Below, piece after piece: positions 7,025-8,624 of a DNA stretch of 64,000 nucleotides. Every line of letters starts with the position of its first letter. Within the stretch, counting starts at the first letter, position 1. Made by a program: the position numbers and the translations under genes. The stretch is from assembly GCF_002952775.1 (NCBI RefSeq), contig NZ_CP025066.1, forward strand, positions 1,116,001 through 1,180,000, written 5' to 3'. Under the pieces are notes generated by a model. It worked only from the letters and a program-made list of their open reading frames with translations. It was not told where the DNA came from and did no database searches. Source of the DNA: Halalkaliarchaeum desulfuricum. Lineage in GTDB: Archaea; Halobacteriota; Halobacteria; Halobacteriales; Haloferacaceae.

Positions 7025-7969
7025 TTACCGCCTCGAGACACCGGCATAGCCGCAGGCGTCACAGGCGATCGTGGTACTGTCCCCCATTGTGTAGCCCGAA
7101 AGCGTCCCGTCACAGCGGGGACACCGGTCGCCCGGGGAACGCGTCGGCTCCGGCGGTTCGATCCCCGAAAGGAGCAGCCGGACGCGAACGCTCCCGTCCG
7201 CACCGCCCGGTTGGGACGATCCGGAGGTCTCCTCGTCGACTGCGGTCCCCCAGATGACGTGAGCCTCCCCGTCGATGCGATCCCGGACACATCCGACCAG
7301 AGATGCCGCGCCGTCGACGCTCAGATCAGGAGTCCCCGACACGTCGACGATCGCACCGCTTGCGGCCGCCACGTCGACGTCGGAAATCACACCCTCGAGC
7401 GCGGCGGAGACGGCGGTCTCCGGCGTCGATTCCGGACCGGTGCCACTGGAGAGTGTTCCCATCCCGTCAGGCGACAACAGCGTCTGAACGTCTGCCAGGT
7501 CGAGGTTCACCACCCCGGCCTCCTCGATCAGGGCAACGAGCTGTGAAATCGCCCCGGGGAGCCATCCGTCCCGGACGAGTACGACTGCGTCGGCGATCCC
7601 CTGGAGCCGGTCGATCGCCGCACGTTCGCTCACCCCGAACCGGGAGGGGACTCCGACGACAACGATCGAGAACGCGTCGTCGCCCCGGCACGAAGACTCG
7701 ACCGACGACAGCGTTTCACCGGCCTCGGGAGTCGGGTTCCGGGTTGCGGTGTCGGCGTCGGACCCCTCCATGCCGACGTCGCCGACGTCGACCGCGACGA
7801 CGGTCGCCTGCCGGTTTACCGACTGTCCCGCGTCGCTGGCCCCGGGAGCGAGCGAGCAGTCCCCACGGAACCCGTCGACTGCAGCAGCTCCGCGAGGACC
7901 ACAGCCGACGACCGAAAGCGACGACTCGACCGCGTCGGCAACGTGTCTGAGTTCCTCGTCGGTCGTCAT
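7025..7969 (-). CDS. Degenerate FtsZ-fold protein with C-terminal zinc ribbon
   Basis: The 314-residue protein aligns by eye with FtsZ. The T7 loop NLDLAD (155-160) keeps the N-x-D-x-x-D pattern that triggers GTP hydrolysis across the FtsZ filament interface. The following MGTLSSGTG, the segment GAIVDVSGTPDLS (205-217) and HVIWGTAVDE (237-246) match the FtsZ C-terminal domain. A T1-like glycine loop (VGCGPRGAA, 21-29) is present, but the Gly-rich tubulin signature GGGTGTG is missing and the N-terminal domain is much shortened. A CPRC...CDAC zinc ribbon (283-306) is appended. I start at ATG 7969; ATG 8002 is an alternative. GTP binding is doubtful, so it may act as a cap or regulator of filaments. 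Confidence 0.7.
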   Translation of the reverse strand: MTTDEELRHVADAVESSLSVVGCGPRGAAAVDGFRGDCSLAPGASDAGQSVNRQATVVAVDVGDVGMEGSDADTATRNPTPEAGETLSSVESSCRGDDAFSIVVVGVPSRFGVSERAAIDRLQGIADAVVLVRDGWLPGAISQLVALIEEAGVVNLDLADVQTLLSPDGMGTLSSGTGPESTPETAVSAALEGVISDVDVAAASGAIVDVSGTPDLSVDGAASLVGCVRDRIDGEAHVIWGTAVDEETSGSSQPGGADGSVRVRLLLSGIEPPEPTRSPGDRCPRCDGTLSGYTMGDSTTIACDACGYAGVSRR

Positions 7970-8084
7970 CGGCGTTGTCGAGAGTTTCGGACCGAGGCTC
8001 ATAAACTGTCCGCTGGAGCTACCACTTTCACTTTCACTCCGCCCGTGGAGGACGTACAAGGGGGGCGACGGCGGAGTTGTCTGT

Positions 8085-8303: not shown

Positions 8304-8624
8304 TCAGGCGTTCCCATCGCCGCGTTTCAGCAGCCACACACCGATCAGTCCGAGTCCGATCGCCGGTACCAGGGGTAACACGAGATACGTCGCGAAAAAC
8401 GACAGTCCGAACGCGCCGACGGCGATGGGATACAGGTAGATCACTCCCGGGACGAGCAGGAACGCCACGAACACGACGCCGACGAGCAGCCAGCCGACGT
8501 GTCCGAGCCCCTCGGCGGGCTCTGCCGTCTCCTCGGGTTCCGCCGTGCCGTGGGCCTCCGCCGTGCCGTGGGCCTCCGCCGTGCCGTGGGCCTCCGCCGT
8601 GCCGTCGTTACGATCAGAACTCAC
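8304..8624 (-). CDS. Small membrane protein with N-terminal HGTAEA repeats
   Basis: This 106-residue protein has a hydrophilic N terminus followed by two to three transmembrane segments (about 45-65 and 70-98) and a short basic tail. Residues 8-28 are three nearly perfect copies of a six-residue unit His-Gly-Thr-Ala-Glu-Ala, encoded by 18-base direct repeats at about 8540-8600. That is a slippage-prone tract that would change length by whole repeats without breaking the frame. The start overlaps the end of the upstream oxidoreductase gene by 11 bases, so expression is probably coupled. The function is unknown. Confidence 0.7.
   Translation of the reverse strand: MSSDRNDGTAEAHGTAEAHGTAEAHGTAEPEETAEPAEGLGHVGWLLVGVVFVAFLLVPGVIYLYPIAVGAFGLSFFATYLVLPLVPAIGLGLIGVWLLKRGDGNA

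Follow-up and report, generated by a model that had tools for sequence, protein, structure and literature searches.

A haloarchaeal FtsZ-fold protein family, putatively from the FtsZ1 side, that lacks the GTP pocket and carries a predicted C-terminal zinc ribbon

ARC3 of chloroplasts regulates true FtsZ. It is itself FtsZ-like and has an additional C-terminal part, and in this it resembles the protein family described here, but its origin is different and MORN repeats stand in place of the zinc ribbon. MciZ is a small peptide unrelated to FtsZ. It caps filaments by binding one FtsZ face, the bottom one (PMC8936486), whereas the present family, for which a similar role is proposed below, would imitate a neighbouring subunit and so bind the top face. 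In the FtsZ filament, T7, S9, H8 and H10 of the upper subunit contact the nucleotide face of the lower subunit, and the T7 residues of the upper subunit help to hydrolyse the GTP of the lower one; in S. aureus FtsZ, D210 and D213 of T7 (with N208) serve catalysis (PMC8936486). In bacteria, mutations in the bottom (T7) interface were reported to be toxic, whereas those in the top interface were not (PMC8936486).

Archaeal FtsZ1 (H. volcanii FtsZ1; M. jannaschii FtsZ, PDB 1w5a/2vap) shares with the family the two-domain fold, an M(T/S)DDEL-like leader, T7, S9 and the C-terminal domain. Compared with FtsZ1, the family lacks T4 (GGGTGTG), the S2-T3-H3 segment and the tail peptide, has a shortened T6/H7 and has an added ribbon. 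FtsZl1 and FtsZl2 (Makarova and Koonin 2010, PMC2875224) are likewise divergent proteins of the FtsZ superfamily, and FtsZl1 also occurs in a haloarchaeon. However, both keep GGGTG(S/T)G, and FtsZl1 has no recognisable T7 or FtsZ C-domain (PMC2875224), which is the reverse of the situation in the family. FtsZl1 and FtsZl2 were rejected as identities, as they are defined by a retained T4 plus a coiled coil (FtsZl1) or a C-terminal region of about 300 aa (FtsZl2), whereas the present protein of 314 aa has no T4 and ends in a ribbon. In the passages on non-canonical members of a survey of archaeal tubulin-like proteins (PMC9856176), CetZ and 'non-canonical TSF' proteins appear, like the family, as extra haloarchaeal members of the tubulin superfamily; those passages describe no pocketless or zinc-ribbon family, and the main text of the survey makes no mention of zinc. 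An earlier description of the family was not found in the open-licence literature searched.

The gene is located in a stretch of 64,000 nt, referred to as the window, and encodes 314 aa on the reverse strand, with the stop codon included in the coordinates. The start at MTTDEELR is common to the relatives, and the upstream ATG at 8002 (MSLGPK...) is overlapped by a TATA-like box. The features of the gene are as follows.

7025..7969 (-): coding sequence of the 314-aa protein, a GTP-pocketless, putative FtsZ1-side paralogue with a C-terminal zinc ribbon
8000..8005 (-): putative TATA-like box (TTTATG), about 31-36 nt 5' of the start codon, read by eye
7862..7969 (-): leader (MTTDEELR...), S1 (VVGCG) and degenerate T1/H1
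7679..7810 (-): S4-equivalent strand and the place of T4 (GGGTGTG), now a variable, unconserved stretch
7571..7678 (-): S5-H5-S6 of the FtsZ N-domain, kept
7481..7522 (-): T7 loop and start of H8 (EAGVVNLDLADVQT), with N155, D157, D160 and T163 invariant in the family
7220..7432 (-): FtsZ C-terminal domain, residues 180-250, matched by PF12327
7235..7261 (-): strand S9 (HVIWGTAVD), part of the longitudinal FtsZ contact, with W240 and G241 invariant
7040..7132 (-): predicted zinc ribbon CPRC-x16-CDACGYAG, at the position of the C-terminal tail peptide in haloarchaeal FtsZ1

Similar A/T-rich boxes were seen by eye 5' of the starts of many relatives, which suggests that each gene has its own promoter and is transcribed singly. 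In the same window, 8304-8624 (-) encodes a small predicted membrane protein whose N-terminus contains a short in-frame repeat, GTAEAH three times and then GTAEPEETAEPAE.

The preliminary description of this DNA had recognised FtsZ in the C-terminal part of the protein. The Pfam FtsZ_C domain was matched at 1.4e-11, above its cut-off, and phmmer against the PDB aligned residues 132-249 with M. jannaschii FtsZ1 at 3e-17; the family profile reached the latter at 5.5e-41 and covered nearly the whole FtsZ part. TIGR00065 (NCBIfam) scored 53.5 bits, below its cut-off of 295.2. PF00091, the Tubulin/FtsZ GTPase domain of Pfam, was not matched in the 314-aa protein; elsewhere in the genome this model detects four genes, which from their sequences we named FtsZ1, FtsZ2 and two CetZ. 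The AlphaFold model, based on 24 aligned family sequences, gave a pLDDT of 85 and a pTM of 0.83, and its best Foldseek match was M. jannaschii FtsZ at 6e-17, the best PDB fold matches listed all being FtsZ. A separate prediction for a divergent Haloarcula member (pLDDT 86) matched FtsZ at 2e-15. The two-domain FtsZ fold was thus found in both predicted structures, and the N-domain, described earlier as short, is a reduced FtsZ nucleotide domain and not another fold. In an hhalign comparison with the FtsZ1/FtsZ2 profile, residues 2-252 were aligned (probability 99.8%, E 6e-30), with gaps at S2-H2-S3-T3-H3 and the first half of H7 of FtsZ and no counterpart of GGGTGTG. The elements kept, named by us from the FtsZ fold, are S1, S4, S5-H5-S6, T7-H8 and the entire C-domain.

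The strongest signal in the family is that of a one-faced subunit, in which the GTP face is lost and the T7 face is kept. Neither the window protein nor any aligned relative has GGGTGTG, and the S2-T3-H3 segment is gone in all family members; no member has the normal nucleotide pocket that would have spoken against the preliminary description. That description had also called the T7 loop (N-x-D-x-x-D) intact, and indeed N155-L-D157-L-A-D160 follows this pattern with N155, D157 and D160 invariant. The 17 family-invariant columns comprise M1, V20, N155, D157, D160, T163, V208, W240, G241 and eight ribbon residues. By element, conservation in the family is highest at S9 (0.69), T7 with the start of H8 (0.66) and the ribbon (0.65), whereas T1/H1 (0.36) and T4/H4 (0.14), which in FtsZ bind the nucleotide, score low; S8 and H10 are also fairly well conserved, and Gly22 of S1/T1 is kept in 92% of the members. 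Bottom-face columns lie above the rest of the retained region, and the circular-shift control gave 1/171, the unshifted position only. Among positions fixed at ≥90% in the set of archaeal FtsZ sequences used, retention in the family is 84% in the T7/S9 face, 42% in the other part of the C-domain and 20% in the N-domain, which bears out the asymmetry proposed earlier; the permutation p of 0.002 is indicative only, because the split between face and rest was set from the contacts in PMC8936486 after the invariant columns had been seen.

In the case of descent, the family forms one clade in the tree (support 100/99), and the family together with all FtsZ1 is split from FtsZ2 (100/100). Grouping the family with haloarchaeal FtsZ2 was rejected by the AU test (p 2e-5). 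The best tree, in which the M. jannaschii row was a sequence entered by hand, places the family as sister to haloarchaeal FtsZ1 with weak support (79/45), and this exact position is unsure because the branches of the family are long. MTTDEELR, the leader of the window protein, is similar to M(T/S)DDEL at the start of haloarchaeal FtsZ1. From these comparisons, the family is assigned as an FtsZ1-side paralogue. Identity with CetZ was rejected: the CetZ proteins of the same genome keep the GTPase domain and are both found by PF00091, unlike the window gene, and the solved structures matched were FtsZ and none was CetZ.

The homologue search proposed in the preliminary description revealed a scattered family. 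A protein search of 392 genomes of the haloarchaeal order, followed by a profile search of the same set, identified it in 25 genomes and 6 of 96 genera, with one full-length copy each; a scan of genome contigs with the single protein gave no match, whereas the profile scan did. Family members score 272-352 bits with the profile and true FtsZ at most about 155. Carriers include Halorubrum, Natronomonas, Haloarcula and Halobellus species, whereas among the genomes searched no Haloferax copy was seen. In 164 genomes that belong to the phylum but not to the order, no match at family level turned up. The sister species, the only other genome of the genus compared, has a copy in the same gene order with approximately 85% identity. 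No family member was found in viral contigs and no plasmid match spanned 80% of the protein; an origin from a mobile element or virus was therefore rejected. With simple pairwise methods, dN/dS against the sister species was 0.26 (NG86) and 0.18 (YN00), and it was below 0.5 in every other pair tested. The gene is under purifying selection and is not a pseudogene. A decaying FtsZ1 copy without function, which the lost GTP pocket and the patchy presence might suggest, is refuted by these values and by the residues that stay invariant across 24 divergent members with every reading frame open, and it is given next to no weight.

The added ribbon had been proposed earlier to be a second binding module, and its conservation, which equals that of T7, supports this reading of the sequence. 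All four cysteines (C283-P-R-C286 and C303-D-A-C306) are invariant in the family, and the two CxxC pairs lie on a predicted beta hairpin with strands at 289-295 and 298-303 in the model, as in a zinc ribbon. The FPG/IleRS zinc finger was weakly matched by 19 of 24 members (best 1.5e-6), and the profile also picked up ribosomal eS31/S27ae ribbons at 2e-4. Since these are the best relatives, the sequence hints at a nucleic-acid binder. Zinc ribbons, however, often bind protein, the ribbon matches of single members are mostly under the Pfam cut-offs, the ribbon hits of the window protein are weak, and the Arg usual at the FPG position is Ser in that protein. Small proteins whose zinc ribbon closely resembles the ribbon of the family were observed at L160:3433-3852, L161:2895-3314 and L144:11723-11902, those of L160 and L161 being fused to a helix-hairpin-helix domain; such proteins may be the source from which the ribbon was recruited.

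The neighbourhoods, which the preliminary description had also proposed to compare, were uninformative. No gene family recurs in all lineages within approximately 9 kb of the 24 relatives, and an operon partner was rejected; the neighbourhoods differ by lineage. In the window, the flanking genes encode an FMN reductase, a NUDIX hydrolase and an alcohol dehydrogenase, with no obvious link. In Haloarcula, two genes that we read from sequence as glycoside-hydrolase-like flank a site at which the family gene is either there or cleanly missing; where present, it lies 0.6-5 kb from salactin and near a FlaD/E-domain gene, a ParA-like gene and cheW. Salactin as a partner is not supported: it was found in every Haloarcula-group genome tested, with or without the family gene, it lies far from the family gene in other lineages, and it was undetected in several carriers, the genome of the window (G000) included, while the sister species (G556) has it. 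As a separate observation, salactin in the Haloarcula group adjoins the FlaD/E-domain gene, the ParA-like ATPase gene and cheW in a conserved order (L152:15026-18882; equivalents in L150, L155, L159 and L185-L188), which suggests a link to motility or positioning; salactin synteny has been described as poor even inside Halobacterium (PMC10746226).

The reading that we tentatively prefer, at a probability of roughly 0.4, is that of an FtsZ1-derived pseudo-subunit that acts as an end cap or monomer binder while its ribbon holds a second partner. The fold, the catalytic T7 loop and S9 of the bottom face are kept and the top face (T1, T3, T4 and the first half of H7) is lost; because of this, docking on GTP-loaded FtsZ1 with the chain ended there is the simplest reading. 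The bottom face would dock onto the top face of an FtsZ1 that is either a free monomer or the last subunit at the nucleotide-exposing end of a filament; by the tentative polarity in PMC8936486, this would be the minus end. The docked protein would complete the GTPase site and take no further subunit, and would thus be a GTP-sensing end cap. The ribbon might then link the filament end, or the monomer that has been bound, to another partner, for which a nucleic acid or a protein is most plausible, and the net effect could be slower end turnover, anchoring of the filament or a thinner monomer pool. The preliminary description had considered a cap or poison of FtsZ or CetZ filaments. The asymmetry between the two faces is real, but a poison is weakened by the report that top-interface mutants are non-toxic in bacteria (PMC8936486), which makes strong inhibition unexpected, so that a mild end cap, tether or monomer binder is preferred; there is better reason to expect FtsZ1 than CetZ as the target, since the protein appears to be an FtsZ1-side paralogue. 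The presence of FtsZ1, FtsZ2 and two CetZ alongside the window gene favours the end-cap reading, whereas the lack of a conserved neighbourhood with division genes counts against it. The patchy distribution and the clean presence or absence at the Haloarcula locus also count against it, as they mean that division does not depend on the family protein.

T7 and S9 could also have been kept for folding and not for docking. The FtsZ fold would then serve a new purpose, as a scaffold or adaptor that has given up contact with FtsZ, with the ribbon and some other surface doing the work and with T7/S9 conserved for structure (H8 capping, domain hinge). The fair conservation of S8 and H10, the patchy distribution and the lack of a common neighbourhood with division genes agree with such a scaffold. 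However, retention is concentrated at the association face, and it is hard to see what a subunit that never encounters GTP would need the catalytic N/D/D of T7 for; we consider a scaffold somewhat unlikely.

Two further explanations were considered. The ribbon could sit on DNA or RNA and the T7 face on FtsZ1, so that nucleoid or ribosomes would be coupled to ring placement as an analogue of nucleoid occlusion. The FPG/IleRS-like and eS31-like matches and the open question of ring placement in archaea (PMC7617429) speak for this regulator, but the mostly sub-cut-off scores of individual ribbons, the protein-binding habit of zinc ribbons and the Ser at the FPG position weaken it, and it is judged improbable. 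More improbable still is a self-assembling or otherwise nucleotide-dependent filament, in which the altered N-domain binds another ligand or pairs directly with the T7 loop of a neighbouring copy. Homotypic contacts would then account for the retention of T7, and the high retention of Gly22 agrees with this, but T1/H1 and T4/H4 are poorly conserved and contain a variable insert, and therefore no conserved partner face is available.

It is still an open question how FtsZ rings are positioned and restricted in archaea (PMC7617429). In this context, the end-cap reading would make the family a dedicated, undescribed one-faced subunit of the tubulin superfamily, namely an FtsZ1 mimic that caps or captures FtsZ1 via T7 while its ribbon ties the end to nucleic acid, for lineage-specific control of the division site in some haloarchaea; in this full form the proposal is unlikely, if far from negligible. 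As a conserved FtsZ1 paralogue that has shed the GTP face and kept exactly those residues that meet the GTP of another subunit, the protein is a ready-made candidate regulator, and family members may bind or control division filaments at their ends. If true, this would show a route by which a cytoskeletal NTPase evolves into a cap for its own ancestor.
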